Below, piece after piece: positions 1 through 54,900 of a stretch of DNA of 64,000 nucleotides. Positions within the stretch are counted from its first letter, which is position 1. The number at the start of each line of letters is the position of its first letter. Source of the stretch: Apostichopus japonicus (lineage: Eukaryota; Echinodermata; Holothuroidea; Aspidochirotida; Stichopodidae); NCBI RefSeq assembly GCF_037975245.1, contig NC_092568.1, positions 40,292,631-40,356,630 on the forward strand, given 5' to 3'. Position numbers and translations under genes: made by a program. The notes beneath the pieces are model-generated. The model was not told the DNA's origin. It did no database searches and was given only the letters and a program-made list of their open reading frames with translations.

Positions 1-301
1 CATTTAAAGCCAAATGACTAAAAAGCACCAAAATCCCATATGCATGCTGATAGGCTAGGCCAAGTACCTCAGCATTGAAAGTGTGGTAGGTCTACCGTAA
101 CTTGAGAGTCTTGACATTTATCTTGAATAGATACTTTAAGGAAAACGTTCTCACCCATGCATTTGGAATCATCTTTTGTATCATAATTACCAAACAAACA
201 AAATAGTTTGTTTCTGTTCAAACCCATTAAAGCTTTTTCTGGTCTTCTATTTATAAACCTTTCTCATTAATGACAACACAAACTGTGCAAAGACACCATA
301 C

Positions 302-7897: not shown

Positions 7898-8228
7898 GAT
7901 TCTTGTTTACATGTTACACGGCAGGGAAGTATTTCGTCGCGTAACACCTGTAGTGTTCAGTAGTAATGTTGATAAATATACGGAAATATGAGGTACCCAG
8001 ATGAACACGTCATAGATTTTATGGCGGGAATCTATCGTTCATAGTATGATCTAAATTCCAAAAGAGCACTGCTGCTAATCAAGCACAGGTTTGAAACGGG
8101 AAAGGGGAAAGACAGAATATTGTTTGGTGGGGTTGGAGTTATCCCCTATGAAGACACCATGACCGCGTGGAAAAACTGATGTGAAAAATTATCCATAATT
8201 CCCTTTGCCCCGGTGTGGGGCCAGCTAG

Positions 8229-11020: not shown

Positions 11021-11199
11021 GTCGCCCAGGAAAGAACCTGGGCACGAAAACCAAACTACTAAACGACTGATACGCTTCTAACCACAGTCCCCTTGCATCG
11101 GGACTGTGACTGTGTGATCATCGTCAGGTGTGCATCACCATTCCACTCGAAAGGGAACAGATACTACACAAGATCTTAGCCAAAAGGCCGAGAAATGAT
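11021..11199 (-). ncRNA. U2 snRNA-like 5' domain joined to an unfamiliar hairpin-rich 3' sequence
   Basis: Minus-strand 11199 to 11155 reads ATCATTTCTCGGCCTTTTGG, then CTAAGATCTTGTGTAGTATC and TGTTC: the 5' end of U2 snRNA, including the branch-site-recognition sequence GTAGTA, with only a few changes. After that it departs from U2. It then has a short hairpin GGTG-ATGCA-CACC, a 9-bp perfect stem CACAGTCCC/GGGACTGTG (11083-11108) and a 7-bp perfect stem GCCCAGG/CCTGGGC (11024-11043). A canonical U2 Sm site and stems III-IV are not recognisable, though GGAATGGTG-GCACACC faintly recalls the U2 3' end. It could be a chimeric or internally deleted U2 retro-pseudogene, or a divergent structured RNA. 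No snRNA promoter element was recognised upstream. Confidence 0.6.
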
Positions 11200-22830: not shown

Positions 22831-25800
22831 TTAGTCACTCTCTACCTCTGTGTCTTTTGATGTAAACACCACTGCAGGGGAATATCCCCTCGAGTTCCTG
22901 AGACTGTGAGATCCCACGAAGGGTTCCTTTCTGGGAGATGTAGAGTATGGACTGAAATCTTTGACATGCTGATAACTCGATCCTTGAAAACTACTCCAGG
23001 AATGCTGAAGGAATATAGCATAAAAATATAAAATTATTACCATCAAATATACTCAAAATATATAACATAACACCAGTCATACATGTGAAGTTGATCAAGG
23101 GAGTGAAAGATTTCAAGCATTCAATTTCACTATCATGTATTTACATCCAGACGTTAAACTATAAAGTGAATGATAGAAAGAATGTTATTGTGTCCTAAAT
23201 TACAACTAAGAGTGCATCTGCAAAGCACATCAGGTATGTCCTTGGGAATGATAGACAAATTAATTGGCTTCATCAAGCATCCTGGGAAGGATTTAATACA
23301 ATTAAAACCTCATTATAATAAAGTAATCACACAAGCTTGATAATGTCCATTTGCTCTTGGCCGGAATTTAACCCATTCACAGTCTTTCAGGGGATATATG
23401 CAAAATTCAGACTATAACCTCGCCTGTGTTTACTCATGCAAAATTTTAATCAGAAACATGCACCGGCCAGTGTATTGACCTATCCATTTAAAACTGTACA
23501 TTAGGATATATGCTGGACTATGTACTACTTGCTGTTGGCATTTATACCTAATGTTTGGCTCTCTCTAACACAACGTTACCACAGCCGAGCAAACCCATTG
23601 AATGACAAATTTAACAAATACCTTCGCGGCACGCCTAAGTTTTAATGGTTGTTCAGTCAACCGAGATATTACATTACAGAAATATAGTTATTTATATCAT
23701 ATTTAGATTAAATTGAAGTAAATACCTCCAAACAGTGAACAATGATAAATTATTTCACCCCCAAAGCTGGTATTCTATTCCCCAAACCTACACATCTCTC
23801 ATTTAGTGTATATATTGGTGTTCTAATCACCAAACCTATACATCTCTCCTACAGTGTTCATATTGGTATTATATTCACCAAACCTAAACACATCTCTCCT
23901 ACAATGAACATATTATTGTTCTATTCACAAAACCTACACATCTCTCCTACAGTGTATATATTGGTGTTCTAATCACCAAACCTATACATCTCTCCTACAG
24001 AGTACATATTGCTGTTCTATTCACCAAACATATACATCTCTCCTACAGTGTTCGTATAAGTATTCTAATCACCAAACCTACACATCTCTCCTGCAGTGTA
24101 CATTTTGCTCTTCTAATCACCAAACCTACATATCTCTCCTACAGTTTACATGTTGCGGTTCTAATCACCAAACCAACACATCTCTCCTACAGTGTACATA
24201 TTGGTGTTCTATTGGCCAAATCTAAATATCTCTCCTACAGTTTACATATTGGTGTTCTATTCACCAAACCTACACATCTCTAATAAAGTATACATATTGG
24301 TGTTCTATTCACCAAACCTATACATCTCCCCTACAGTGTTCATATTAGTATTCTAATCACCAAACCTAAACATCTCTCCTACAATGTACATATTGGTGTT
24401 CTTTTCACCAAACCTAAATAGCTCATACAGTGTACATACTGCTGTTTTAATCACCAAACCTACACATCTCTCCTACAGTGTTCATTTAAGTATAATATTT
24501 ACCAAACTTAAGAGTGTTCACTGTGTAGCCTATATTGTTTTTGTTTTTCCAGTATGAATTAACTCCTATGGCCAATGCACTTGCTTAAAATTTTGAAGTG
24601 ACTGTATGTGGATGAACACAGGAAAGCCTTGTCAATGTCTGAAGTTGTATTTTGCTTCTTCTCTGCTAATGGGCAAAAATGTTAGCAAAAAAAGTACCTT
24701 ATAATGATTGTAAGATTAACAACAAGATATGAACAAGATATGCATGCCCATCATATGAATGCATGAACAAGATATGCAAGCACAAGATATGCATGAACAA
24801 GATATGCATGCACAATATGTGCATGCACAAGACATGCATGCACAATATATGAATGCACAAGATATGCATGCATGCACAATTATATGCACAAGATATGCAT
24901 GCACAATATGTGCATGCACAAGACATGCATGCACAATATATGAATGCATGAACAAGATATGCATGCACAAGATATGCATGCACTAGATATGTATGCACAA
25001 TATATGAATGCATGAACAAGATATGCATGCACAAGATATGCATGCATGCACAATTATATGCACAAGATGTGCATGCACAATACATGCATGCACAATATAT
25101 GAATGCATGAACAAGATATGCATGCACAAGATATGCATGCACTAGATATGCATGAACAAGATGTACATGCAAAAGGTAGGCATGCATAAGATATTCAGAT
25201 TGTCATAACTTTAGGTCAGATGGAAATTTATGACCCTGTGAGTGGTACCACACATTGTAGACTAGTTGGTAAATCGCTACATGTTGTTTTTCCAGCTGAA
25301 ACAAATGCGACTTAACACTGCCAATTGTGATCAGTTGTAAATCTTGAGCACACATACACTGCCTAGACGATAAACACAATTTACCAAGTAATGGTGGTGG
25401 AATTAATTTGTGTAGTGATCTGTTGGACAATATGCAGCACAGCTTGATTCAAACAGATTTCAGTAGATTTATCCTGTCACAGGGAATGATAAGTGTAAGT
25501 GAAGAACAGGTACTTATATGTATACTATAATATGAAGCAAACATCACACAACAATTTTTTTTTAATTAGCCCTTTCTTCAGTTACAGTTATATTTTCACC
25601 ACGGTTGAATGGACATACCTACGTAACAAACAATCCATAAAAATTTTATGATTTCCTTGATAATTGGAATAATTTCCCCCATTAAGTTTTACAACAATCC
25701 TCTGCTTTTTTAAAGTGTAATTTGTATTGTTTGCCACTGGAATACCCCTTTAATTGTTGTTAACTATATCAAGAAAGAGCTCACTGGAGTCGATATGTCT

Positions 25801-28800
25801 AAAGACCAATTTAATGGTGTGTGGATTTCAACACAAAAGCAGAACCGGTAAAATACTCTGCCAAGTGGGTATTGCTTTCACTTGCGTCACAACCATAATA
25901 CTTTTTCACCGCAGACAATGAAGGCTCATTTTTTGTCTAATTTGTTTACCTTGGAATACTGATTTACCACAGAAGACAAACATAAAGTCAAACAGGATGT
26001 CATGAACAATCAAAACACTGGTGTTTCGGAAACTCAGTGGTGGAGACACTCTCCTTGAACTCTCACCCCTAGGTTAGGCAGGTGGAAGTTCTGGTAGTAA
26101 GAATCGGTGCAAAAGTTACATGTATCCATCTCTTTCTTACTTCTCTGGATGCTTAGTTTTAAGGAGAACACTTGCTATCAGTCGGGTGTTTATATCCAGA
26201 ACCATCACAATGACAACTTCTCAAATCAGCTATGATGTAAAGATTCTGTAAGCTAACCATCAGACCGAACCAGATTGAACCGGACCAGGCCAGATTGAAC
26301 CAGGACTGGGCCGAACCAGACCAGACTGAACTGTCTGCTTAATAATATAACAGACTAAATGGAAGATGGTGAGTTGATGAAGAGACTTACCCTGGTTTTC
26401 ATCTCCCGAACAAACTTATCCAGACTTTTTTCTACATCTGGTCTAGATAGCTTCACCATCTTGAGAGTGGTAGCCTGTTAAATGACAAGGTTTATTTCAT
26501 CTTAAAATAAAGTTGTACTGTTTAAGGAATTTGTTTGTCATAAGTAGGTTCAGACCTGTGCAATAAATGATATGTTGAAGGAGTTTACTACTGCAGGTGG
26601 TATCTCTCTCTCTTATGATTATGACTAAATATGGCGATGGACATGTTCAAGTGGATCAAGTCACCTATATGGATATCCTTTCAAGTCAAGTCACCTACAG
26701 TTTAAGGATATTCTTTTCAATTCAGCTCACCTACAAGGATATCCTTTCAAGTCAAGTCACCTACAAGGATATCCTTTCAAGGCTACTCACCTATAAGGAT
26801 ATCCTTTCAAGTCAAGTCACCTACACCATTGGTGACCATAGTCACCATAGTCACCATTTATGGTGACCATAGTCACCATTTATTAGAGTAAATAGTGTTC
26901 ATAGCCATAACACAAGAGGTAGTAGTTTTAATTTTCAACTTCCCAAAATTAAAACACACTGTGCTGGGTCTTTTTATTACAATGCAATTAAAAACTGGAA
27001 CAGGCTACCTGAAAACATAAAATCCATCCTGCTGAAATACAATTTTAAAAAAGATGCCAAAGCCTACCTTTTAAATCATATGAATGTCTAGCTTGTAAAT
27101 ATCTTTCTTTTTTACAGTGTTTGTATGCATGTTTTAGTTTTTTAATAGTTTATTTCTTATCTTTTGTATTTTAATGGTTTTAAGGACCCCTTTGGAATTA
27201 AGCTTTTAGCTTAAAGGGTTATCCTTGGCATGTTATCTTCTTTTTGATGCATTTAAGTATATTCCCTTCTTGTATTTTAAATGTTTATCTTTATGTGCAA
27301 TTTTTTTTTTTTTGTATGCAGATGAAGATTGATATCTTGCCGAATAAATTCAAATCAAATCAAGGATATCCTTTCAAGTCAAGTCACCTTCAAGGATATC
27401 CTTTCAAGTCAACTCAATGGGTTTAAGAATGTTTGGACGAGCACTTTAAGCATTGTAACCGGGTCTGAGTGTTTGTGTCTTCAGTTTTTTTTCCTCTCTC
27501 TACAGGGTCCTTGATGGGGACTTGAGTGTCCCTCCTGATCCTTTTTTCTACTAAACTAAACTAACTCACCTACAAGAATATCCTTTAGACCTTGCAACTT
27601 TTTTGTTTTTCTAAACATAAAACGGAAAAATAGCTAACAATTTGCATAGACAACATTAGAATGCTAAACGAGTCCATATTTTGTTTCATTGTCAATACAT
27701 TGACATTATGTTAATTAAGTTAATACTGGACAACATATCATATATAAAGTTTTAGATTCGTTGCTAGGTTACTACAAACTTGAGCCACTGCAGACTTAGG
27801 ATTACATTGAGACACAACAGTTTGCTGTTTTTGTGTACTCTCTAAAATGAATTGTTGTACTCATAGGAAACTTAAAAAAGTTTAGCTTCAGTTTCTGCAT
27901 TTTAAGTCCTGAACTAATGCCCAGACAACAACCAGGCCTTTGACCTGTGCCAACGACCTAAACGTTGTCAAAACTTGACTTACATCACAATATATGGCAT
28001 GCAATCAGCTTCTTTGATTTTTATCTCTTTTTCAGTTGTTTAATTTCTTTTTCAGCAGGTTCTACCATGAATAAAGAAAGTATGTAGACAATGCCAAAAG
28101 CATTTGAACCAACAAGGTTTTACAAAACAAATTCAGGATCCAGCTGTTATGATCTCGACCTTTTGAAAGTCATCAAGTTTGCTTTGGGTTCGGGAATAAC
28201 CAATTTGTTTCAGTTATTGTCTGTTTCCTTTTGTTATTGTTTTCTTTTGTTTGGTTCCTTTCATTTCAAATGTTTTAGTCCTTTGTTTCCCTTTGTCTAA
28301 CTTCTGTATGTAGTTTGTACAATTATTTAGTACCCTTAGGGTAACACTAAACTATAGTCTACACAAATCAGTTGTCAGGAGCTAGATACAAATTTCCACT
28401 GTAAAATAATACAATTTTTGAATAATCAAATCATATATCATATTAATATAAATATATTAAAAAAACTACAATAATATTTGTAATTTTTCTCATGTCCTTT
28501 TATGGAAGGTTAGCTAGGGGTGGAAGGTGGCAAGGGTAATAGGGGGAAAAGATTTTAATAAATACCTTCCAATTAATGGTTTCCATACTATGAGGGTCAT
28601 GTGACACTGGCCATCCAATCTTCACTTTCCTTAGGGTGTGAAAGTCTGAGAAAGAGAAAATGTAATCGTAAGCCTAGGTGATTCTAACAACAAATGATTA
28701 ATATTGTAGAAATATTAATATTTGTGTGGGTTTGATAGAGTTATTAAACAAAGCACTAATCCTTGATAACCCAGATTAATTTGTTCTTTCAACTCTCATG

Positions 28801-31800
28801 TCAAATTGTTCGGTGCTGTTTCAGTTTACCAGTAAGGTAGTATAAAAATATCTTTCACACGCGACAAGTAATTAATATATTATGACTGTATATATTTTGA
28901 GTGATATCAATCTCTGGTTTAATACTGCACAAAGGGTTTCATTGCTAGAATTATTAAAACCTGACAAAAAGGATGGTTAGGTGGGTTTGGAAATAGAAGA
29001 AATTATCTTCAGGCCTAGAAATTCAGGCTTTTTACTGGCTAAATCCCAGAGGATTTAGCAGTTTGCCAGTAGACAAAATGGAACTGACATTTTTCTGCCA
29101 TTAGACATTAAAGGGTGTGAAGAGTCGCGCACAAAGAAACGTCTCATGCCGGTAATCTGACCTAGTTTCTAATGAGGTGTAACAGAAGTGTTAGACACCA
29201 CCATCGATCCCAGAAAATACACACAGAGCTTGCTACCGTCAGTAATTAGACACTAGTGTACAGTCAGTACATGCAGCTACAGTCAATGCCCAAAACACAG
29301 TGTACATAGCAGCGATGGACATCTCAGGTCTAGATAAAAGATAACAAGGTACCAGGTTTCATTACTGTCTGCATTTTGAAGCGACAAGAAGAAAACTTCA
29401 CTTGCAAGCAACAGAAAGTTAACTTTTTCAGAGCGCAGCATGTGGTTTGGGGCGAGTCTTCAATGCCTTTAAGAACATGCATGCATACATACATACATAA
29501 GTCTATTATCAGCAAATACTAGTAGTCTGCTCTTAAAAGCCTATACAGTAACTATAAATGTGTGTGATAGGAACATAACATTGAGAACTTGATTATAGCC
29601 AGTTTTAGCTATTTACAATACAATACAAATTTGTTATGGAGAAATGGTGGTCATGAAATTTGTGCTTATAGATATCCTCTTTTCTGGCAGTGATATCAGA
29701 ATTGATCAAACAATGGATTACCCTAAACAGTTGGACTTGGATTGTGGAGCTGAATATCAAATTTATGTCTTCAACAAAGCATTACAAATGTTTAACATGG
29801 TTTTTTAGTAGTAAATATCTTGAAATCTAAAATAAATCTTGAGCCATATATAATACCTGTGTTTACTTTTTGCTAATTTGTTGGTTTATGGCCTATCAAG
29901 GCTGACAAATAAATTATGTCTAAAGCCATTCTATAGCAAAATATACCAAGGGGAGGGTGGTGTGTATATCCAGGAGGGTAATTACATGTAAAAATAATTT
30001 GTTCATATCAGATATTTTGAAGACATGCAGCATTCTCTCTGTGTATATTAGGTCGCTATGTTGCTTCAAAGTAGACTGAAGGGAGATACACAAGGGAGAA
30101 TCATTTATAGATTTACCTTGATACATACAAGGGGGAATTTATGACAAGAGGGACAGGGAGGTGCACAGAAGGGGTGGGGGAAGGGAGGGGGAAACAGCAG
30201 TCTGCTATGAAAAAGTTTCCTTAGATTACCAGAGGTGACGAGGTGAGTCCACATGCAATCTTATACCGATTACAATCATTTACCCTGCACTGTCATTAAG
30301 CAAAAATGTTTCTGACACATTCATAGATAATTATGACCAGTTTACACTGTATACCAACAAAACAACCAACTTACTGCTTGCATACGATTCCTCAAAGTCA
30401 TAAATAAGGTCTGACAAGGACTGAAAAATATAAAGAGAAATGGAGAAAAATAAAAATAATTTAATATTTCAACTATTTGTTTTGGAATATACAGGAGGGA
30501 GATACATACAGAAAACACACCCACAAAATGGGGGGAGGGGGAGTTAAAGGGGGTGGGCGTAAAGAAAACCAATGCATTAGCACTGGAGTAAATTCACTGA
30601 ATTGTGCAACAAAAATAAGATAACAAAAAAAGACCAAAGGGACAAATAACAAACTATTATTTATTAATAATTCATTAACACGAATGTTTGTTCTTTCAAC
30701 GGCTCCTTCAGAGGAATAACTTGCCAATATAAGCATACACCGGCCTCTTTACTCTGTTTAATTTTAAAAAAAAGGTTCATCGACTGGAGCAAGACTGCTG
30801 TTTATCCATTTGTATCTGTAAGCAGAAACTTAATAATTTGATGTTTTTGAGGAATGGTACATAATTTCAAGACAGAATAGCTAGGGTTGATATATGTGTT
30901 ATCTGCAGCTACATAATATCTATGTGTCAAAGCATTCTGTCTTTAATGTTTAGGAAGTTTTATGTTTGGCAATTAAAAACCTCATTGACAGTGGCGGAGC
31001 GTCCATACAGTCAGGGGGGGGCGGATGCCCCCCCTGACGGACTCAAATGGACTGCTGGCGCCCTTTTCAGCTCTTTAACACTTTTTACTTATTCGCGATT
31101 ATTGACTTTTTTATTGTGCTCTCATCTACCTCATTTTGTTAGTGTAATTTGGCGATGACACCTATTTATGCTTCGTTTATCTGCAAATTAGCCAGGCCCG
31201 GAAAGGGTCATATCAGGCGATCTAGGGAGTATCTTTACTCAAAAAATTTCTGTACGCTACGCGCCAACCTGTGGTGGCGCTCCGCTTAGATAGTGTCGAA
31301 AGCGCCCCTACAGACCAATCTCGCCCCTCCTGACCAATACCCCTAGCTCCGCCATTGCTCATTGATGTACATGTATGAACAAAGCATTTAAATCAATTGT
31401 AATCTCACCAATCTTCGTTATTTAAACTTTGTCCTACATAGTTTCTGTTCTCCCCTCTTGATTACTGCATGAAGATTCGTTTGATACAGACGACAATTAA
31501 TAGTTTTAATGAATTGGCTAGAAAACGAAACTCAACACAACAGGCAAAAACCTTTAGACAATATACAGTCAAATAAAGACAACAAAATTATTATTAAACA
31601 ATTTTAAAGTATCAGAAATAGAAACACAAATGTAAAAGTTGATATTGATGAAGAGTAACCTGGAATTCTAAAGGTTTGTACATCAAATCTTCTCTCCTAC
31701 TCATCCCCATGGCACCATACCTGCCGCTGGAACAGACCCCAAGAACAACATGGCTATGAACGTGACCAGAAAAGGAAGTCTTAAAACTGATGGGGAACCG

Positions 31801-34800
31801 GTGAAGGTTACTGGTACCGTTGGTGAGGTAACTGAATAATACAGATATAATTAAGGTGTCATTGGCACAGTAGAATGTATTTGGTTTTAATAATACAACA
31901 TTTTTAATACTTCTTGCAGTCCTACTCAAGAAAATTTGTGCTGTAGAAAGAAGGCATTAAAAGTTAAGACTATGTACGTCTCATCCCACACAGCTGGTAC
32001 TTCAGCAATTCTAAGAGCTGGCATATAGCTAGTCCAGTATTCTGATCTCCAAAAGCAAGGAGGCTATAGGCTATGTTTATCCAGTCTTAACAGTGAACTA
32101 AAGCTATTGTCTTATGCCATGATATCACAGTTTTACTCAATTCAACAAAGTTCTTTCATGTCATTGATATTTCAACCTAATTCAGTGACCTATTTATGTA
32201 CAATTTTTCGTAAAGCAATGTCATTGACTTGAACAATGGAAAGTCAATATATGTCAGTAGTGATTGATGATCCTAAGCAAACAATGGAAAATATTCGTCA
32301 AGTGTGAAATCCCACGATAGCACTGACTAAATTCTACCTGATAATAAACTAATGAGAGTTCAAAATAATGCATTTCTTAACAGTATAAATCATTCAATTA
32401 CAAGTTATTTTGACGACCCAAAACTTCAAACATTTAACTCTCAATAGAGAATTTTGTAGCCCATAAATCAAAGACTCAGACTCTCCAAATTGATCTGCAT
32501 TCTCTTGAATGTCCTTGAAACAAGTCGATTTCAGGACATCAATCCTGTTTTTATTATAAACCAGTCATTGTGTATTAATTATAGCTGACACACCCTAATT
32601 GTTCATCAAGTTTTGGTCACTTCAAAGTCTTCGAGAAGATTATTGATAGAGTTTAATTGTAGAACCAGGCTTCAAAATTCAGGCAACTACTGGCTCAAAG
32701 TCAGTGGATACATCTGACTATTTACTGGTAGAAATAAAAGACAGTTTTCTATTGATTTATGCTGGTTTTCGTGTTAATTCAAGTGAAATGCTAGTGGGGA
32801 TTTAATTTTAGACAATATAATTTTTCTATGTAATGGCATTATCTATCAAGTGGTCCAAATTGTGAAATTCTCAGCCTGTAGTTCTATAAATATTTAAGTC
32901 AGTTTTATTCTTCTTGTAAAACTTTTCTGTCATACACAATGTAGTCTAGGATCAGAGAGAAGACATTTCATATCTCAAGGGGGAACAAAATGTAAATTAA
33001 TTATGAAACTTTACTACAAAATTCCACTGGAACCTTTTCCTCTTAGCCTTCATAAACCTCTTTTCTGAGCATGTAACATCCCATCCCATTATGTAAATGG
33101 AATCCCCCATACACGACAGAGCACTAGGTTAGGTGTTTACTAGTAACAGAATTTTGGTACCTTCAAGTTAAAATCACTCTTGATAAGAATAATGGGAGAA
33201 ACCAAATGTTACACCTGTTGAAGCTTTTCAAGGCAATCTGATGGTGAGACAGTTTACACTGCAACAAAGGAATCACAAATGATTTCCAGTTGGTAAGCAT
33301 CATGTTTCATCTCTATAGTAAGGCAAATATGTCACCAAAACAGAACTAGTATTGTTCGATACAGGTGGCAGACACCTACAGTGGCTTTACGACCTTCCTT
33401 ACCGGTTTCGAACCTCTGGACATACAATCAGCGTCCATAGCCTAGTGGTAAGGGTGTCCGCACATAAAGCGGGAGGCCCTGGTTAAAATCCCGGTGGAGG
33501 CTGGAAGTTTCTTCACTGTTCTGGATTTTCCAACTCATTACGATATCAATTATATATATATTCATTCACCTTTGTTGTTTACCTCCATTTCATTAAAAAA
33601 AGTCTGTTTAAAGTATCTCTTTCGAGAACCGGCTTTAGGAATCACAAATGATTTCGAGTTGGTTGGCATTATGTTTGATCTCTAGAGCAGGCAAAAACGT
33701 TACCAACACAGAATTAGTACGGTTCGATACAGGTGACAAGCACATGAGTGTATATATATGTATATATATGTATATATATATATATATATGTATATATATG
33801 TATATATATGTATATATATATATATAGATATATATATCACATAATATACTTAACTAAACTACCATCATACTGCTACTCGGAGTTTAACGGGTACGGCTCG
33901 CGCACCGATCATCAGGCAACTGAACAACACAGGCTATCTCGACTTCAGGCGTGTGTGTTTACGGTTGCCATGGCGACAGTGCGATAACTTCTGTTCTGTT
34001 CTGGTGTGTGTCGGATTGCACCGCCTTACAACGCAGCGCTAAAGAAAAGCGGGTACGAACGTACCATCTCATACGACGACGGGGGCGCACCAACAAAACC
34101 CAAGAAAAAAAGAAAGAACCGCCAGAGGAAGATCACGTGGTTCAACCCACCATTTAGTAGGAACGTGGAAACCAACGTGGGGTCACAGTTCCTCAAGCTC
34201 ATAAATAGGCACTTTCCACGTGGGAGCAAGCTGAGGAAGATCTTCAACAGAAACACAATGAAAGTGAGCTACAGTTGCATGAAAAACATGGATTCCATCA
34301 TCAAGTCCCACAACGCCAGAATAATGCGGCAAAACAACCCAACAACAAATGCCACCAAAACTTGCAACTGTAGAGATAAAGGAGCCTGCCCTCTGCGTGG
34401 AGAGTGCTTAGCCGATTCAATTGTGTACGAAGCCACCGTCACTTCCAGTTCCGACTCGCAGCCATACGTTGGGCTCAACGGGGGTGATTTTAAATCTAGG
34501 TACCGCAACCACACGAAGTCGTTTCGCAACAAAAAATATGAAAAGGAGACAGAACTATCCAAGCATATCTGGGCACTGAAAAGCAAGGGGAGCGATTATA
34601 CTATTGAATGGAACATATGGAAGCAATCCGACACACACCAACGCGAACCAGGATCATGCAATCTATGCATGGAAGAAAAGCTGGCCATAATACAATCGAA
34701 GGACAGATGCATCAACAAAAGAACAGAGCTGTTATCCCACTGTCGCCATGGCAACCGTAAACACACACGCCTGAAGCCGAGATAGCCAGTGTTGTTCAGT

Positions 34801-37800
34801 TGCCTGATGATCGGTGCGCGAGCCGTACCTCTGAAACTCCGAGTAGCAGTATGATGGTAGTTTAGTTAAGTATATTATGTGATATTCTAGCTCTGCCTTG
34901 GCATAGAGCACTCTTTGTGAATATTGGCCACCATTATATGTGATATATATGTATATATATATATATATTTATCTTTATCTAGGTATGGCAAACCCAATGC
35001 TCAATAATTGGACAAAACAGCTTTACTGACAGATAAAGCAAGTTTATCTATAATTATTTAGCATTTGGCATGTCATATTTTCATGCCTACTTAACAGTAG
35101 ACAATCATGGCAATATGACATACACAGTCCAGCTAGTTATTAGGCGATTATGAAAGGTCGCACTGTTAGAATGTCGGTGATAGTATTGGAAATAGCCTCT
35201 CAGAAAACTCAGAAAATTAGAAATTATATGACGAGAAATATCAACAGAAATGGCAAAAGTATTTTAATTTTGACATGATTTTATCCTCCTTAAAAATGTC
35301 AATTATATCTTATAGAGGTAAATGAGTTTCTTTCTTTTCAACCCAAAGTACAGCTTAAGACCAATTCAATTTTAATAAACACTAACTTGCAACTGCAGCA
35401 GAAATCCACTTTCCCTTCCATGTATTAAACACATCCCATACTCCTCTAGATAAGGTTTACTTCGATCTTAACCCCAAAACATTATTTTGCATTTGCTAGT
35501 TATGTCATGAAGCAAGAAAAATGATCTTAAGGGCTAAGAAAAGTATGTTTTCTGGAAGATTTTGAAGCTGGACATTCATGCCAGAAGGGGGGGGGGGTAG
35601 GTGAGGGATAGCAATTTGTTTAGTCTCATGTACATTTCTAAGGTACAGCCATGAAGGGAAACTTAAGCTAATTCCTTCCTTTTCTATTTTTTTTTTTTTG
35701 TTCTCCTTAGTTTCATGTGAAGTATAAACAAATATTAGTGGCTAAATAATGTGTGCATTTGTAGTTACTACTTCTATACAAAAAGTACAAATTTATAAGC
35801 AAAGAAAAGATTAAAAATTATAGCATTAGTATCCCTGCCTTATTATTATTATTATTATAATTGGTTTAATAATTTCATCATGGATGTATGTACAGTAGTT
35901 GTATTCAGAGCAATGCTTTAATAGGTATCAAAATACACATAGAGATGTTTGCTTTAACAATTTTAGGGAACTGTCCACAATTAATGTTACTATATAAATT
36001 AGACTATCGTGAAGGCTGGTTATACCTACACATTCATTTCCAGGTTTGCATATATATATAGAAGTTCCCATTTTCTAGCTGCTCATTTTGTGAGGGAGCT
36101 GTTTAACAATTAAAATCATGACAATATGGCACTGTGAACTGAAGACTGGATCACATCTCATTTTAGAATGGATCACCATTGACATCGATGGCATAGTTAG
36201 TTCTTTACAGGACTAACATCATCTGATATCATCTTCTCAGCTTTTCATCTCATTTGTGAAGTCTATTTAGTACACTATTCATTGTTCATTAATCCAACTA
36301 AGTTGTCTGCCAATCTGTTTAGTTTTATTGTGTCCTTACTCTATTCTAGGTTCAGTTTGCCTTTGAATGAGAATTCCACTGTAGGAGGTGGAGTAGATAA
36401 ATGAGAGAGACAAACTTCTAAGAGAAGCAACGAAGCATTTATTATTGGAGCAGCTGTCATAATCACAGAGATGAGTGTGTTTTAAGGATACATGCCAAGA
36501 ATGACAGCTTCCAGACATTTGATGGGGAGAGATTCTCTGATCATGTCTTTAGCCACTTCTAGTAATCTATTGATGAAGAAAGAAACAAATGGAAATATTT
36601 ATATTAAGGTAGCAGATAGTCCATTCCAGTATTCATCTTCTCAGGCACTTCCCAACCTCTTTTTGTGCTAAGCCTACACATGTGTGTGTGTGGAAGAAAC
36701 TGAATGGCTTTCAACTCATGCTTCACTTCGGCTGGCTATCCAATTTAAAGTTTTAGATCATTTGTTTGTTTCGTTTAAGAGCATTTCAGACTGGACAACT
36801 GTGGATTTCTCCTGAAGAGACCCACCTTACGTTAGCTAGCCAAAACTCAAACACACAACCTCCTAGATGCTAGGTTTTGTTGCTTCGGACAGCAACGCCT
36901 TTATCAACTCAACCATAGCAACGGTTGAAATGGGACAATGGTACTCTTGGAAGGCTGAAAGAATTGATTGCCAACACATACAATCAGCATCTTTGATATC
37001 TTTTATAAAGAAAAATCCAGTAATAATACAGCACTTTATGAAAATTGCCATTTTTAAACTGTTTATGGAAATTTAAAATCTAACTATTCAATTACATTCA
37101 ATCCTGTGACAATCAAATTGAGACACAAGCCAGTAAAACAAGGCCAAAAAGTACAATCAATAACAACCGCAAAGGATCATGAATAAAATTATGATTTCAA
37201 ACTTTGGAAAGTATTGTAGTATTTTCTGCCAAATGGTTTGCTTATAACTTTACAAGTCTCTGCTGACTTTTCTGAAAACAATGAGTTCTGCTGAGATATG
37301 GGAAAGGTCTAAGGGGGTCTAAGGTATATTACAGTCTAACCTTGCTCTTAGGATTTTGATCACACAAACAAAAAAGAAACATTCCAATTGTCTATGGCAG
37401 TTGTCTACTGAAGCCCACTTACCCCTACTCTAATTTTCAATGCTAGTGGTAATGTTACTCACCCTGCAAGAGGTCTGGTCTTCTTAATCTCAAAAAATTG
37501 CATTCCAGTGTGATTATATCTGTCCAAGCAGTCAAGGGATCAGATTTCAGAAAGATATTAAGCAATAACAACAAATATGGTAAAACTTTAAAACAAAAAG
37601 AAGGATAATACATTATTTGAGAGGTATCTGTTTGGCAATACAGAATTAAGAGGGTAACAGCTATGGACAGGAATTACAGCTTTAGAAGTAAAAACTTGAA
37701 GGTTTTGTTTTCCAATGTAGACTTGCATGTCAGATATTTGCATTACATAATCCTATGAAAAGAGATAACAGGTCTGCATTATTTTTATGAGGTATTGCCT

Positions 37801-40793
37801 CAAAATAAGCCAGAAAATCAAATAATGATCAGTTATGGTTGTAATGCAATATCTTGATAAATTTCAATAAATATTTGAGTGATTACTAGCATTACCTGAA
37901 TTTTATATACAAACATTGTCTAAAAATTGCATGTCAATATTGACCTTTGAAGCGACTGCTGAACTGGGATGAAACAATACCTTACACTTTAAGGCTTGCC
38001 CATAATTATTATACAGCTCTTGTGTAATCGACAGTCAGGTTAAACGAGATATAAAATTTGTCTCTAATTTAATCAAACAAGAGCTAGAATGTCAAATCAG
38101 TACTGACTTCTTGTTGTTATTGACTTCTCTTTGACTCGGCAAGACTAATCAAACACCTGGGCAATTTAAATCTAGACCTGCTGGAACATATTCCACAATA
38201 CATTATATGCAATTCCAAATGTTTACAGGGAAACAGTTAACACTGTTTACAGTATATGGATTGTAATTATGTTTCCATACATTAACCTAAATAGATCATA
38301 CATGTTTTGTTTTAGAGCAGTTTTCGCTAAAGTTTCATAACCTTTAGGACATTTCGGAAAACAACATGACAAGCATAATAACAGATGAAACAGCCTTGGC
38401 AGATGGAAGGAGAGAAATAGAGTGATGGGCTGGTAGGCTTAGAGGGCAGTATTTAAATACTGTTTGACTGCTTAAGAGACATATTAGTAAGAGGATACTG
38501 TAATTGGCTCATATAATGTTGTATGGACTGAACTTTAGAAGCTGGACTTGTGGCTGCAGAGGTTGCAGGATGAAAGCTTGGTGGCTGAGGTATGGCTACC
38601 TGCGAAACAAAAAAATATAAAAAAGTATTAGGCAAAGAAAGTCCCAATATTTATAGCATAGATCAAGATTTGTTTTAAAGCACTGTTCTGATGGCTGCTA
38701 TGCACAATATACATAGTTCCAAAATTATCTTAAAACTTGATGGTGGATGAACACCTTTTGCTTATCGGCTTACATCTGGTGCTTTATAAAGTTACTTTTT
38801 AACTGATACAAGCTCTGTCCATCATATGGTTTGGGGAAGGGGGGGGGGGGGTCAGCACCCCATCATGAAGGCAAGAATTTGATATGAAGCCTGTCTTTTT
38901 CTCTGCAGTCTGTCCTGGCATGTTTGCTATGGTTTTTGCTGCATTATATTCTTCATGTGATTTTTTACTTAATGATGTAATTTCACATCATTTCATTCAG
39001 CTATAATGTTTATGACAGTGACCGTGAGCTAGCTTCTCCTCTACGTCTTACTCCACTTGTATGGATTGCTTAAGTTAATATCTAATCCGAAATGTAATGT
39101 CACAGATGAAACTTAAAGGATTGGTTCAGTTATCATACATGTTTACTGTATGTAATATGAAAGAGGACAATAAAAGAAACACAATGGTGAAAAACTGTTC
39201 AAATATCTTTTCAGTTAAAGAGATATTCAAGTGTAAAGTTTTATCAGATTGTGTAGAAACTGCTGAAATCTGACTAGCTGTGATGTCACATCCTCACATT
39301 CCTGAAAAGTCTTCGTTTTTTCCTCTAAATATTTTGTGAGATTTCATGACTTTCAACCAAAAGATATGTCAGGAGATCTCATATTTGTCAAAGGAAGTAT
39401 TTGAGATTAAACATCTGAAGAATTTTTGATTATAATATTTTCAAATGTGTTAAAAAATGTAAATAATTTGTAAAAAGAAATATATTCACAAATGTTAAGG
39501 AAGTGAGGATGTGACGTCACACCCTCACAGTAAGTCTTTCTAGACCAGTCGTTTTCAAAGAAATTCTTCAAAGTGTCATATCTCCTTAACAGAGCATGCT
39601 ATCATGGTACAGTAGTTTCTTCACTGTTCTTTTTGTCATTTTGTGCTCTTTCATACAAAATAGACATGTCAAACACCTGAACCAATCCTTTAAATATTGA
39701 AATACAATATTTCTCAAATTTAGATATGAGCAGAGTCTGTGACTTTTCAGTGTGCCATTAAGTTATAATTTAATCTCATAATAATGTAATTGATTTTTTG
39801 TTTGTTTTTGTATGTGATACAGTAGACTAGATTTTTTATGGTTGTTCACCAATTTCTGCTGATTTGATCAAGCTTACCGAATACTCATCAAATGATAATT
39901 TATTACGAATAAACTAAGACTCTGCTCCTAGATTTATCCAAGATATCAATTGCTGTTACTTCATAATTCAAGTTGATTATGAATCATTGTGATGATAACA
40001 TACTTTTTTCATTGTAGTTGTAACCACAAGTATACAAAACTGTATATAAAGGAAATTTTACATACAGAGCTTTGGCCTTTTACAAGATCATTCTTTAAGA
40101 TAAATTGCATTCATTGGTTTTACGGCAAATTTAAATCAAATGATGACAAATTCAGTGCAAAATACTAGTGCGATCATTGCATTGGTTGCTATAATTGTCT
40201 TGAGGTCTAAGAAATTTTCAGTGATTAAATGCCATGCAAAGAACAATTTAGGATACATATTTCAAGGCAGTTATATGATATATTTGATACATTTGCCACT
40301 GAAATACTGTATATTAAGCCATTTGGTCACTTACTGGTCAATTATCCATTTTCATTTATCATATAAATCAGACCTTATTTTACAGTGGCTATATTAGTCA
40401 TATATACTTTTCAATCTGCAAATGAGGTTACATTTAGAGTCGGTATCCCATTTGTGATTGTCAATAAATGGCCCCTTTGCATCAAGCTCCTCTCAAACTG
40501 AAGTAACAGTTGTTGGTCCAAATGTCACCATCAAGCAGAGGATAGGCCCTTCAAAAGTTTAAAGTCCTGTGCCCCTAACTTACTTTAGGAAGACTGTCCG
40601 AAGTTTGAATGCCCTCTACCATCTTTTCTCCCTCTGGGTGCACCTTGGCAACATGGTCCCACATTTTCTGCAATGTCTTCGATGACAGAGGCACTCCATC
40701 CTTGTTAACATAGAACAGAACTCCTCCAGGAGTAAATGATGGTTCTTTGGACTTGTCATCTTCATCATCTGATTTTGATGCATCTCTATCCAT
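22831..40793 (-). CDS. VASH: Vasohibin (tubulin carboxypeptidase), complete, 9 coding exons, 332 aa
   Basis: Cysteine peptidase of the transglutaminase-like fold. With the small partner SVBP it removes the C-terminal Tyr of alpha-tubulin. Exons, minus strand: 40584-40793, 38499-38599, 37463-37519, 36492-36566, 31660-31831, 30375-30420, 28566-28645, 26391-26474 and 22831-23004. All phases join, giving 999 bases. Family strings: GVLFYVNKDGVPL, KMWDHVAKVHPEGEK, YNHTGMQFFEIKKTRPL, LPIKCLEAVILG, RFPISFKTSFSGH, GRYGAMGMSRREDLMYKP and KIGWPVSHDPHSMETINW. The predicted active site is Cys140, His175 and Ser192, each exactly 29 below human VASH1 Cys169, His204 and Ser221. The acidic N-terminus is shorter than in human VASH1 (365 aa), and the C-terminal tail is Ser-rich and lineage-specific. 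Introns 2 and 4 carry U12-type donors. Whether this is the single pre-duplication gene or a VASH1/VASH2 type cannot be told from one copy. Confidence 0.96.
23750..24520. repeat. 48-bp minisatellite, about 16 copies, in vasohibin intron 8
   Basis: Unit built on ACACATCTCTCCTACAGTGT, then ACATATTGGTGTTCTATTCA and CCAAACCT. Copies differ by scattered substitutions. The 48-bp period is a multiple of three, so a plus-strand frame stays open for a while, but it encodes only the repeat. Confidence 0.95.
24720..25190. repeat. ATGCATGCACAA-rich tandem array in vasohibin intron 8
   Basis: Short units of about 15-16 bases (ATGCACAAGATATGC and variants ATGTGCATGCACAAG, ATGAATGCATGAACA) are arranged in larger blocks repeated at about 24780-24890, 24890-25000 and 25020-25140. 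Both strands stay open in more than one frame simply because of the repeat. Rich in TGCATGCA palindromes and purine-pyrimidine alternation. Confidence 0.95.
26640..26830. repeat. 30-bp minisatellite in vasohibin intron 7 (left part)
   Basis: About six copies of AAGGATATCCTTTCAAGTCA plus AGTCACCTAC. The same unit returns at 27358-27418 and as a worn copy at 27564-27588, so the array has been split by the LINE fragment between them. A short inverted repeat GGTGAC-CATA-GTCACC lies at the junction near 26831-26880. Confidence 0.9.
26882..27360 (+). mobile_element. 3' end of a jockey/CR1-like LINE interrupting a minisatellite
   Basis: The plus-strand frame 26882-27091 encodes VHSHNTRGSSFNFQLPKIKT and NAIKNWNRLPENIKSILLKY, then a stop: the C-terminus of a non-LTR reverse transcriptase ORF. 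About 270 bases of 3' UTR follow, ending in AATTCAAATCAAATCAA, a short repeated LINE-type tail, immediately before the minisatellite resumes. Heavily 5'-truncated. Confidence 0.8.
27358..27418. repeat. 30-bp minisatellite in vasohibin intron 7 (right part)
   Basis: Two copies of the AAGGATATCCTTTCAAGTCA unit, directly abutting the tail of the LINE fragment. They continue the array at 26640-26830. Confidence 0.9.
29010..29580. repeat. Dispersed repeat, copy B
   Basis: Same ordered words as 5290-5600 (GGATTTAGCAGTTTGCCAGT, TAGACATTAA, AAGCCTATACAGTAACT), but with about 300 more bases between the blocks. In vasohibin intron 6. Confidence 0.45.
30989..31357. mobile_element. Non-autonomous hAT transposon (MITE), 369 bp, with 8-bp target duplication
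   Basis: Ends CAGTGGCGGAGC and GCTCCGCCATTG are inverted with one mismatch in 12 bases. Direct repeats CTCATTGA flank it at 30981-30988 and 31358-31365. This is the hAT pattern: CAG-initial ends and 8-bp duplication. No transposase is encoded. The termini continue into imperfectly inverted G-run/C-run sequence. In vasohibin intron 5. Confidence 0.9.
33269..33371 (+). repeat. Direct repeat, left copy, flanking a SINE
   Basis: GGAATCACAAATGATTTC, a CATGTTT-ATCTCTA word and GTTCGATACAGGTG recur in order at 33638-33739, roughly 80% alike. The two copies are 369 bases apart, start to start. Confidence 0.75.
33431..33560 (+). mobile_element. tRNA-derived SINE or tRNA pseudogene head
   Basis: Folds as a tRNA: acceptor arms GCGTCCA and TGGAGGC with one mismatch, A box TAGCCTAGTGGTAAGGG, anticodon stem CCGC-ACATAAA-GCGG and B box GGTTAAAATCCC at 33481-33492. 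The anticodon loop lacks the invariant T33 and the B box has lost TTC, so it is not a working tRNA. It continues into a tail GGAAGTTTCTTCACTGTTC. On the plus strand in vasohibin intron 4. Confidence 0.65.
33638..33739 (+). repeat. Direct repeat, right copy, flanking a SINE
   Basis: Partner of 33269-33371. It runs directly into the TA/TATG microsatellite before the Penelope-like element. Confidence 0.75.
33741..33833. repeat. TATATATG microsatellite at left edge of the Penelope-like element
   Basis: Alternating TA with a G about every 10 bases. A similar tract of about 45 bases lies on the other side of the element (34943-34972), suggesting insertion into, or seeding of, an AT microsatellite. 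Confidence 0.9.
33989..34785 (+). pseudogene. Penelope-like element ORF, C-terminal part with GIY-YIG endonuclease
   Basis: Open to the stop at 34783-34785 with no ATG near its start, because the reverse transcriptase part is missing. The linker region holds RIAPPYNAALKKSGY, ITWFNPPFSRNVETNVGSQF and RKIFNRNTMKVSYSCM, strings I recognise from metazoan Penelope-like ORFs. A Cys-rich motif CNCRDKGACPLRGEC follows, then the GIY-YIG nuclease: IVYEA, YVGLNGGDFKSRYRNH and TELSKHIW. A terminal C-x2-C sits in CNLCMEEK. In complete elements this nuclease nicks target DNA for target-primed reverse transcription. No frameshift is visible in the part kept, so the insertion may be fairly young. Confidence 0.9.
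34799..34850 (+). ncRNA. Hammerhead-ribozyme-like motif in the Penelope-like element right arm
   Basis: Core CTGATGA at 34804-34810 and GAAA at 34833-34836. Stem III is ACT-CCG-AGT (34836-34844) with the cleavage-type sequence GTA, and stem I pairs GTTGC (34799-34803) with GCAGT (34846-34850, one G-T wobble and one T-G). Hammerheads with short stem III are known in Penelope-like elements. The region between the two cores can pair (CGG/CCG or GGTGC/GTACC) but leaves unpaired bases next to GAAA, so it is probably a decayed ribozyme. The inverted left-arm copy has TTAAAC instead of TGAAAC and would lack the conserved G. Confidence 0.6.
36690..36930 (-). mobile_element. Possible tRNA-derived SINE remnant
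   Basis: On the minus strand an A-box-like TGGTTGAGTTGATAAAGGC is followed about 40-50 bases later by GTTGTGTGTTTGAGT, a decayed B box. Boundaries unclear; in vasohibin intron 3. Confidence 0.3.
39117..39689. mobile_element. 573-bp MITE with TTAA target duplication (piggyBac-like)
   Basis: Terminal inverted repeats AGGATTGGTTCAG and CTGAACCAATCCT are exact, flanked by TTAA at 39113-39116 and 39690-39693. TTAA duplication is the mark of piggyBac-type transposition. Sub-terminal inverse blocks GTCACATCCTCAC and GTGAGGATGTGAC lie at about 39285 and 39506. No ORF. In vasohibin intron 1. Confidence 0.85.
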
Positions 40794-48987: not shown

Positions 48988-51900
48988 TCAGCTATCACTG
49001 TTGGCTGTTATTGCAGCTCGTTTTTGGAAGAATTCCTTCTCGTTTTTTTGTCCGTTTCGTAGATGATCGCTGAGGGTATCGCTACTGGATGATAGAGAGC
49101 GCTTCAACTGACGTAGCTGCCCATCCTTGCAAAGTTCTTTCTCTGTGAGGTCATAACTCAGGATCTCTTTGATCGATGCCTCCTTTGGGCTGCTCTCATC
49201 CTCTGACGACAGACAATTGTTCTCAGAGTTGAGAGGAAGAATGGAATTGGTCACTTTTGAAAGCTCTTGTTGCACATGATTAAATAAAGCTTGGCGAAAC
49301 TCTGGTACTCCGTCATAACCTGTGAGCAAAACACACAATTGGATCATTAATATCTGGTACCTTGTCATAACCTGCAAACAAACACAACTCGTCATACATG
49401 TCTGGTACTCTGTCATAACATGTTCACAAAACATGACAGATCATGGATCTCTGTTACTCTGTCATAACCTGTGAGCATAACACACAACCGATCATAGATC
49501 TCTGGTACTCCGTTATAACCTGTGAGCAAAACACACAACTGATCATAAATTGCTGCCAAATACACAAACGCACCAGTTCTATGGTTGTGTGGATCAAAGG
49601 ATTCAGTATAATGAGAAATGAGCCCGAAACATCATCATTTTCTTTCCAATTGGAAAATAACTATAGAGTGTTAATTGGACTACTTTCAAATTTGACATAC
49701 ATGCTACAAGCCATAGGACCCTCCCCCATTGTAATACACCTGCATTGTAAAATACCCATTTTTATGACATTTTTTTTTATTACATGCAGTAACTGTATCA
49801 ATTATGAACTCATTAATAACAAATCATACTTGCAAGCTTACTTTGCAACCACACAAGTTTATAGATAACATTATTGCAATATTTAGTGCTTAGCCCTTAG
49901 CCAGGAATTCTGAGTTGAAGTGGCTAAAACAGTATATGGCGGGACCAACAATTTATGGAGCAGCACAAGGCTCATGTCCTGTATTCTTCATTTTTGTTGT
50001 TGAAGTTTGCACATATGAATGTGGAAAGGATGGGGAAGGGGAGGGGAAAGTAGTCTACAAGGGGATGACCATCCACCCCCCCAAACCCCTGCACTGGTCT
50101 GGTTACCAGACTGTCTTAGCCTGATGATAACTTCAACTTAATGTTATACAACCCTGTCAATGGCTAAGAAAACATCTGCGAAGCAGAAAAATACACAGCT
50201 CATCTGCTTCAGTTTGTTTGACATGACAATTATACAACCCTGTCAATGGCTAAGAAAACATCTGCGAAGCAGAAAAATACACAGCTCATCTGCTTCAGTT
50301 TGTTTGCATGACAATTACTTTCACTTTGTAAAGCATAGCGAAGTATAAGAGTCCACACTAGTTCATTATTAGAGTCCTTAGGGGAAGCAACAGACTGCGA
50401 CAAAACCAGGAAATAACTTACAAATTCTAGAGATCTAAATATGTCAAAGTCTTTGCATATAATTGGAACCTCATCGTCCAGACGAAAGTAAAAAGAACGA
50501 AAGTGCACGATTGCAACTTTTACCCTTCGCCACTTTCTCCCTACCTCACCATCCCAAACCCGAAATCCTCAATTCATCCCTACCTCACCCACCCAAACCA
50601 AAAATCTCCAACTTGTTAGTAACCGATTACACAGTTAAATATACAATGGATATATATATAGTCCTTGCCACACTGTACATACCTGGGAATGCATTAATAT
50701 CTATGATATAATGAATACCAGAATTATTCTCTACGATCACATCAACTCCAAACAGAGCCATGCCCAGTTCAATTCGTAAAACCTTGGCTAGTCTATTTAA
50801 GGTGTCTGATTCAGGTTCTATAGCTCGCCTGTTTAGATCCTTTTCGTCCAACTGAAAAGAAAACAACGAGAAAAAGATGTTGTCTCTGCTCTCTGAGGAC
50901 AACAATCGAGACTTGTTCATCTTAACATTCCAGGTACTTAAAAGGTCAAAGTTCAGATCAGACATGACCTGAGGGATGTCCTCAGTAGTACTAAAACAAT
51001 TCATAGTAGGTGAAGGACATACTAATACTGACTAATAATAAAGAAAAGAGTACTTTGAAAAATCATATTTATCTTGATTCAAAACACAAAGTAAATGCAG
51101 TCTCAATGATTAACTAAGTTTCATTTTGACAAAGTAATGCAGGTACATGAAGACAAACAACAAGAGCGAATTTCAGTTTCATTTCCATTTAGACCTCCAG
51201 TACAGTTTGTGATGAAATTTTGTGATGAAATTTTGTGATCTTTTTGTGATACATTTTGTGATCTTTTCAATACATTATCGTCTTAATTTTTAATGAATCA
51301 CCAACTATGCTTGGTCCATCCCCTTTCTCTCTCTTCCTCACCTCACCAATCTCTGTCTTAGGGAATAGAAAGCTATGGTACATCAACAGATCAATTCACT
51401 ACATTCTAGAAAAGCTAGATACAATATAATGATGAGGTTAAGTATTATTTAAATTACACTCATTCAAGAATTTTACTCACCTCGTTGAGAAAGCTAGAGG
51501 AGTTCGGTTTAGAGACATCATGACTGTCAAAGAATATTGTACTATGCTCTGTAAACAAAAAGAAATGATATAAAGGCATTGATTTCCTTCAGTCCCCAAC
51601 TTCATCAACCCCAAGTTTTTTCTCAAGATAAGAATACCAAACTAGGCTTTAAAAAAATAAGCTCCTTCATATATAGCTATTGAGTTTTTATTCTACTGGC
51701 TTCTAAAATTGTATAACCCAAACATTTCATTTGCTTGTTGTTTTTTTCTATTTACTATGTCTTCCTTCTTTCATACCTTATATTTTTCTATGCATATCCA
51801 TCCCAAAATTTTGTATTTCTACACACACATATTTTAGATTTAATTATTTGCCAAGAAAAACTGACTTCTCAAGCTGATGAATTGCCTTCTGAAGTTCTGA

Positions 51901-54900
51901 TGATACTTACTGAAATTTTACCAAAAATCAACATTATAAACTGATTTAAAGTGTGACCAGGCAAGGAATTCATCAGATCATTATTCAGGTATTGTAATGA
52001 GTACTCCTGTTGATGAGTACTCCTGTTGATGAGTACTCTTGTTGATGAGTAGTCCTGTTGATGAGTACTATTGTTGATGAGTACTCCTGTTAATGAGTAC
52101 TCATGGTACTGCACAATCATGGTTTGGACACCGTTAGTCCCAGTTTGTTTAACTTTAACTAGTCTGACCAAAAGTCATAAATTACATGTAAAAACTATGA
52201 ATCTCTTGTGACGATGACATTTGACCTCTGTGACTATGACATTTGACCTCAGCAGCAGATCCTACAAGAGTCCATACATCAGGTCCTTTCAACTGCTACG
52301 AGAGGTCTCGTGATGAGAGGTACTCCTGGAATGACTCTTCTTCACAAAGCCAAGCAATGTTTTGGAGGAAATGGAGCCCAGAGCACACCAGACCAGTCAA
52401 GAACAGGCCGGGCGATTGTAAGAAAACATGGTTGAAAAGTGAACTGACAAAACAGCTTTTAACTTGGTATGGCTGTCTCAGATGTAATAAATACTGAGAA
52501 ATAAGAAACGTTAGCTTATAATCATCTAACACTTACAACGTTTACCACGACTCAACCACTACTCACCACCGGCTGTGAAGTTTTTCAGCGATGGCCTTTG
52601 CACAGTAAAGTACTGATCCCCGATAAAGAATAGCTTATATAGAACTGCATTATGACTGATAAACGTTTGGGCCACGTAAGGAGCGACTACGTCTTTAAGA
52701 CCAGCCTCGTTAAATATGATTGCCATCTGTGAAAGAATGCAGAACATGTTATGCTACAACTAAAATCTACAAATTCAGAAATAAAGTTAAAACTGTGGGC
52801 TCCTCAGAGGAGATGTGAAGTTGAAGCATTCAAAACACTTAAATCGCCCAAAAAAAATACTTGACCAGTTAACTGTCAGCTCATATGATAATCCTTTAAG
52901 AAAAGATGCAATCATGTTTGTAATACTAAAGCATTATTTTTGCATCGAATCTCACAACTTATTGTTTTGTGTCACAACTTTAATTTCACTGCACATGTTC
53001 CCTAAATTATCACACTTAATTCAGTCATGAAAAGCTGAGAGGTATTTGAATTAATTTTTCATCTGGTAGAGCAAGTGATTTTCATAATTGTTAAATGCAA
53101 CAATTCGTCTCAGCAAACCAACTTAACAGAATGGATTCAACTGGTCCGAGTTTTGTCAGTATATTTTGAACAAAACTGGCCAATGGTTAAATGCTTGATA
53201 AAAGGATTCTAAACTAATGATAAAACAATAATGTCTCTCATTAATGTGTTCATGACATACTAAAGAAATGTTCCACTTGTAAGACCGTCGGCTTAGGTAT
53301 AGTGAAAATGATTTCAGAAATTGTATTTTGTGGACAAGAACTTCAAGGTAGATGTGTTTACCTTGTGAGAAGTAACAGATCCGTGGGCCTGTGATGGCTT
53401 GCATACTGTAGAGAGAAGAGAGACATCGTTCCTTAGCCGAAGAAGTAAAGTCACCCATGACAAGGTGCTGGTAATGAACACCACTAACTCTCACTCACCC
53501 GCACCCAAAACTTACTCCTTCCCAACCTGCAAACCCCACAAGACGGACACTAGGGTAAGTATGGCATTACGTTGTACACTTTTACAAATATACAGATATG
53601 GTGGACAAAAGTAGCCATAAAAATGTAAACTTCTAACAACAAGATTCCTATTATTTGTAGACCAAAGCATTTCTACAGAAATGCAGATAATTCTTGAGTG
53701 TAAGTTATAACACTATTTGATCATACTTAAACTCTACACCTGTGACATGATCCTATCAGCTACAGCCAGATAAGTGCTGTCTCATTGAGATTTTTCATGC
53801 ACCAATTTAGTCTCAAAACGATTGCTACTGTACTATATACAGTACCAAGTGAGATCCCCTTCACTGCATAATATTATCAATTCCACAGAATACTCTCCAT
53901 GGTTGATGACTGTAAGTGTCAAAGTTCCCATCCTCAATCTTTGTCATTGAAACACTTTATCGAATAATGTCGATAGGCACTAAGCACAAATAAATAAAAT
54001 ACACACAGATGAAACGGTTTGAATGTAAAAGAGACAATTTACACAAAGGTTACTGGATACTTGTCAATGAGAGGCTATGATACTCTGATCATGCATGATC
54101 AAACAATTGTATCATTACTTGACTAAAAGTGAAGGTTTCTCCCTAAAACTATCTGTTGTGCTGCTTTTCTAACCACATTACTGAATCTTATCCACATCTG
54201 TGTGAAAAGGTATTTTACTTTTAACTCCTCCTATCTGTACTTTTGAAATAGTACATATTTCAAAAGATATGTCTGATTGCAAATATTGGCTACCTTGGCA
54301 TACTTTATTTTCAATTTTTGTCAAAATTGAGCATACATAGAAATCAACTGAGATTTTTGTTTTGTCATTCTCTTCTAACATGCACAAAATGGTCTTAATC
54401 TTCATTTTGTTTTTTGTTATATAAAATGTGAAGGAACAACAAGCAGATGACCAGAAAGTCAATTGCTTTCCTTTTTGTCTACAAAGTTTTCAGACCTTGA
54501 CCTATGTTGACCTCGAAGATGTACTTTTTGAGTTATATAGTGTTTTACAAGGTTCTAGACTTTGACCTCTGTCGTCCCCAAAATAAACTTTGACCTCTTG
54601 AATGCAACTAGACAGATCTACATGCCAAAGTTATAAATTTGATCCACCATGAATATTTCGAGTAACAGTGTTTATCAGCAGGTGTCACAAACACAAGCAC
54701 CCACACACACACATACTGTACATACACACAGACACACTCGCCATCACCATCTCATAGATCCCTCCTGCCTCTGGCAAGCAATAAAAAAACAAGCAGATAA
54801 ATAGTAGGAGCTAGACATGAAGGCACTTTCTGAACCTATCGGATGTGTACAGAATATGATGTTAGAACACCCTCTTGGACCTCTCCATCATCAAATTGAG

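Follow-up and report, generated by a model that had tools for sequence, protein, structure and literature searches.

A U12-type intron has already been reported in the vasohibin family. A mouse study, citing U12DB, gives Vash1 as a gene with a U12-type intron, and the passage concerned names the gene without specifying the intron (PMC2787017). Apart from a newt lens paper, this study was the only open-licence literature found to link vasohibin, VASH1 or VASH2 to U12-type introns. The portions of the vasohibin gene-structure literature that were covered did not state, for either VASH1 or VASH2, which type the introns are or where the splice sites lie.

U12-type introns in general are biased against phase 0, over-represent T at position -1 of the donor, disfavour A and G at this position in phases 1 and 2, and cluster in the same genes in 21 of 21 genomes tested (PMC7367187). 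Eight U2 introns misfiled as U12 have also been described; the six with the best donors have AG before the donor, and in the remaining two the base at -1 is A and the donors are poorer (PMC10853781 Table 1). For vertebrate U12 genes, the orthologous intron is absent in 194 of 267 invertebrate orthologues (PMC2831892), and the minor introns common to human and acorn worm number 127, those common to human and sea slug 116 (PMC10639083).

The window analysed here is a stretch of 64,000 nucleotides from Apostichopus japonicus. It contains a vasohibin gene whose second coding intron (V2) is very probably a GT-AG U12-type intron that would be removed by the minor spliceosome, most likely an old animal intron that has been kept, and whose intron V4 is likely a second of the same type.

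The vasohibin gene and its surroundings

On the minus strand, the vasohibin gene runs from about 40.8 kb down to about 26.4 kb. Reading frame, homology and splice consensus, with some donors set partly by eye, gave the positions of eight coding exons and of the seven complete introns between them (a slash marks the exon-intron boundary throughout). The exons are as follows.

40584..40793, minus strand: exon 1; reading frame and splice consensus, rather than homology, set its start codon and 3' end
38499..38599, minus strand: exon 2, ending ...YMSQLQ; last residues aligned to VASH chains
37463..37519, minus strand: exon 3, YNHTGMQFFEIKKTRPLA; placed by frame and homology
36492..36566, minus strand: exon 4, LLEVAKDMIRESLPIKCLEAVILG; placed by frame and homology; contains the motif IKC, with the catalytic Cys of human VASH1
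31660..31831, minus strand: exon 5; placed by frame and homology
30375..30420, minus strand: exon 6; placed by frame and homology
28566..28645, minus strand: exon 7; placed by frame and homology
26391..26474, minus strand: exon 8; placed by homology, 3' end by splice consensus

A protein of 177 residues, in which the end of exon 2 is joined to exons 3-8 and exon 1 stands outside the alignment, matches the Pfam family Vasohibin (PF14822) with 288.8 bits against a cut-off of 24 (E 3.7e-86). In the PDB, the spliced protein finds 19 distinct sequences, each a tubulinyl-Tyr carboxypeptidase 1 or 2; the matches span 175-176 residues, with E values from 1.8e-72 to 1.9e-69. The gene is not an obvious pseudogene, since its frame is open across the placed exons. 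A further C-terminal exon probably lies below 26390, with a candidate frame near 22.8-23.0 kb. Pattern matches were found in 4 stretches of viral_contigs and 24 of genome_contigs, none of them encoding a relative, as expected because these collections hold viral and prokaryote DNA.

Intron V7 (26475-28565, minus strand) is in phase 0 and has a weak donor, AAG/GTATTTATT, 12 of 26 pyrimidines before its AG and a U2 score; that it is a converted intron would be speculation. The donor of V5, CAG/GTTACTCTT, is unusual as well, yet both V5 and V7 score as U2 and were rejected as U12-type candidates.

Several other features were observed in the window. An ITPK1 (inositol tetrakisphosphate kinase) gene, identified by Pfam PF05770 and by a tblastn search with a human sequence, occupies 49240-60660 on the minus strand. 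An acetyl-CoA synthetase-like gene lies at 250-7906 on the minus strand, with an exon at 7466-7906 that matches ACAS_N and, on inspection, further exon-like frames within 5126-5302 and 250-459. Long tandem repeat arrays are present at 2961-4294 (period about 147/218/365 bases), 23768-24485 (about 48 bases) and 24729-25194 (about 15/64/174 bases). On the minus strand at 11154-11199, about 46 nt at the start closely match the 5' end of U2 snRNA before the match collapses (49.6 bits, gathering 46); this is probably a truncated U2 pseudogene. No minor-spliceosome snRNA was found within the window at Rfam gathering scores.

Splice signals and junction of the second coding intron

The original prediction, made from the sequence alone, was that V2 looks like a U12-type intron. 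Its elements are listed below.

37520..38498, minus strand: vasohibin coding intron V2, 979 nt, phase 2, GT-AG; classed as U12-type from donor and branch scores, junction fixed by homology
38490..38498, minus strand: putative U12-type 5' splice site GTATCCTCT of V2; +14.2 bits U12/U2 with approximate matrices
37531..37539, minus strand: putative U12-type branch motif TCCCTTGAC of V2, branch A at 37532; 12.4 bits

The predicted span and strand are exact. The donor had been described as one mismatch from the U12 consensus, and ACA/GTATCCTCT does differ from GTATCCTTT only at +8; in its extended form, GTATCCTC, it agrees with RTATCCTT at 7 of 8 positions. It was also said to lack a U2-type form, and inspection agrees, as the donor has only GTA in common with the U2 consensus CAG/GTAAGT, so that pairing with U1 would be very poor. 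The branch motif TCCCTTGAC (37539-37531) fits TTCCTTRAY at 8 of 9 positions, as claimed, and its shorter form CCCTTGAC fits TCCTTRAY at 7 of 8; the branch A at 37532 and the final base of the intron are 12 nt apart. The reported lack of a polypyrimidine tract holds as well, with 15 of 26 pyrimidines before the AG and a longest run of 6, against 20-23 of 26 in V1, V3, V5 and V6. A missing tract is not diagnostic alone, because the U2-scoring V7 has even fewer pyrimidines.

The junction was predicted to be required by the phase and the protein, and this is what the alignment gives. Exon 2 ends in TTACA and exon 3 starts with ATATAATCACACTGG, which together encode L-Q-Y-N-H-T-G in phase 2; across the boundary, TTA CA/A TAT AAT reads LQYN without a gap against the PDB VASH1/VASH2 chains. 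The junction is unable to slide by one base because the first G of the intron differs from the first A of exon 3, and it is unable to slide the other way because the last A of exon 2 differs from the last G of the intron.

Phase 2 counts in favour of a U12-type intron because of the published bias against phase 0 (PMC7367187). The bases before the donor, CA in V2 (CA/GT, with no AG dinucleotide) and AT in V4, count in the same direction, since most misfiled U2 introns show AG. The A at -1 counts against V2 as a U12-type intron, because this base is disfavoured in phases 1 and 2 (PMC7367187); the preferred base is a tendency and not a requirement.

Scores across the window and the intron V4

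The U12 and U2 matrices used for scoring are approximations to the general shape of the published human ones, and not the published files. With these approximate matrices, the comparison that had been named as the check on V2 favours U12 over U2 for its donor by +14.2 bits (log2 U12/U2). On the same approximate scale the other vasohibin donors score -16.5 (V1), -30.6 (V3), +14.3 (V4), -10.1 (V5), -14.6 (V6), -7.8 (V7) and -18.8 (V8), and the five donors read in the neighbouring ITPK1 gene score -16.4 to -30.9, all five U2-type. Thus V2 and V4 alone among the 13 donors score as U12, the other 11 being U2 (-7.8 to -30.9). This control is partly circular, because a U2 look helped to place V1, V8 and several of the ITPK1 donors; in a stricter set of six junctions inside the ungapped VASH alignment (V2-V7), two donors score as U12 and four as U2. 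When the matrices were perturbed (n=2000), the V2 donor stayed positive in 99.9% of trials and the V4 donor in 100%, compared with at most 9.1% for any other donor (V7). Among 7582 GT sites on both strands of the window, the V4 donor ranks 6th and the V2 donor 7th by U12/U2 score.

Branch motifs were scored at 8-21 nt from the intron end. The V2 motif (12.4 bits) is equalled or beaten at only 4 of 7523 AGs in the window, whereas the five other complete vasohibin introns apart from V4 score -4.2 to 2.6. In a wider search (7-40 nt), V2 is still best. The donor score, this near-best branch motif, the phase and the junction together bear out the original prediction for V2.

The donor motif by itself is too common to identify such introns: the window has six copies of GTATCCT, each on the minus strand, and four of them lie at no placed exon end. 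At these four sites (47481, 40256, 20199 and 5701) no coding-exon end could be placed within 150 nt upstream in three frames, and they were taken as chance occurrences.

Intron V4 was absent from the original finding on V2, and its recognition as a likely second U12-type intron in the same vasohibin gene is the addition made here. Its elements are as follows.

31832..36491, minus strand: vasohibin coding intron V4, 4660 nt, phase 2, GT-AG; second likely U12-type intron by its scores, junction by homology
36483..36491, minus strand: putative U12-type 5' splice site GTATCCTTA of V4, T at -1; +14.3 bits U12/U2
31850..31858, minus strand: branch-like motif CACCTTAAT of V4; 6.8 bits; branch A at 31851, at a distance of 19 nt from the intron end

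The extended donor of V4, GTATCCTT, agrees with RTATCCTT at 8 of 8 positions, and its branch-like motif, in the form ACCTTAAT, fits TCCTTRAY at 7 of 8. Two U12-type introns in one gene would be unsurprising, because such introns cluster in genes (PMC7367187). It is unlikely that V2 is U12-type while V4 is U2-type or in transition, which would leave only one U12-type intron in the vasohibin gene. In favour of this, the V4 branch motif is weaker, 118 of the 7523 window AGs have one equally good, it lies 19 nt from the end, and in the wider search it is exceeded by the branch-like TACCTTAAT of the U2-type V3 (8.5 bits). The V3 motif, however, is 37 nt from the end of its intron, and V3 itself was rejected as U12-type on its plain GTGAGT donor. 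Against a U2-type V4, the donor CAT/GTATCCTTA scores strongly as U12 and carries the T at -1 that is over-represented among U12-type introns, and the 17 of 26 pyrimidines before the AG, with a longest run of 4, make a poor U2 tract. V4 is likely, with good confidence, a U12-type intron.

That V2 is itself a U2-type intron, with a weak donor and a branch that resemble U12 by chance or by decay from an older U12 intron, is highly improbable: misfiled U2 introns have been published, two of the eight with A at -1 like V2 (PMC10853781 Table 1), A at -1 is disfavoured among phase 2 U12-type introns (PMC7367187) and GTATCCT recurs outside placed exon ends, but the six misfiled examples with the best donors carry AG before GT where V2 has CA, the donors of the two with A at -1 are poorer (PMC10853781), and V2 combines a suitably spaced branch motif, fitting at 8 of 9 positions, with a donor to which U1 would pair very poorly.

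The roles of U11, U6atac and U12 in minor splicing are well established. For V2 as a U12-type intron, U11 and then U6atac would pair with the TATCCT donor, U12 would pair with the CCTTGAC branch motif near the acceptor, leaving the branch A (37532) bulged out, and 37521-37520 would supply the acceptor AG. Sequence motifs, phase and junction are the basis on which we infer that V2 uses the minor spliceosome.

Two further features lie inside intron V4. Within 33834-34885, between inverted arms of 173 nt that are 92% complementary (33834-34006 and 34713-34885), the plus strand has an open frame that encodes 265 aa (33988-34785). The frame has no Pfam or NCBIfam match; on inspection we take it to resemble the GIY-YIG end of a Penelope-like retroelement. 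At 33430-33503 on the plus strand there is a tRNA-like sequence called as Tyr with the odd anticodon ATA (Rfam tRNA 42.5 bits), perhaps a tRNA-derived repeat.

Comparison with known vasohibins and U12-type introns

The gene described here contributes a U12-type intron with good support, and a likely further one, to a family in which such an intron was already reported, and the general picture is unchanged by them. A wider reading starts from two U12-type introns in the gene that flank exons 3 and 4, exon 4 carrying the IKC motif with the catalytic cysteine. Without minor splicing no active vasohibin enzyme would then be produced, and the detyrosination of tubulin would rest on the minor spliceosome, possibly since early animals. 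We consider this quite unlikely.

Compared with known vasohibins, nothing was seen in the protein that sets it apart from VASH1 and VASH2. VASH1A is described with seven exons (PMC6540211), as compared with at least eight coding exons here. The U12-type intron of Vash1 belongs to the same gene family and, like V2, lies directly beside an exon; the likeness is at the level of the gene family, as the mouse study's passage gives no position for the Vash1 intron (PMC2787017). Because a U12-type intron, whichever it may be, is reported in Vash1, V2 is most likely an old animal U12-type intron kept in the lineage that holds it. Neither loss nor retention of such an intron would be remarkable, since both are on record (PMC2831892; PMC10639083). 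Should the positions turn out to coincide, V2 would be a further minor intron retained across animal lineages, here in a microtubule-controlling enzyme.

The catalogued GT-AG U12-type introns (U12DB, IAOD, MIDB) have in common with V2 and V4 the donor RTATCCTT and the GT-AG ends, as well as a non-zero phase and co-occurrence in one gene; the branch TCCTTRAY is shared by V2, and V4 has a weaker, branch-like form of it. V2 deviates from this class at donor +8, at the second base of TTCCTTRAY and in its A at -1, and V4 at donor +9 and in two positions of the branch motif. Judged by its sequence against this class, V2 is most likely a genuine U12-type intron of an ordinary, catalogued kind.
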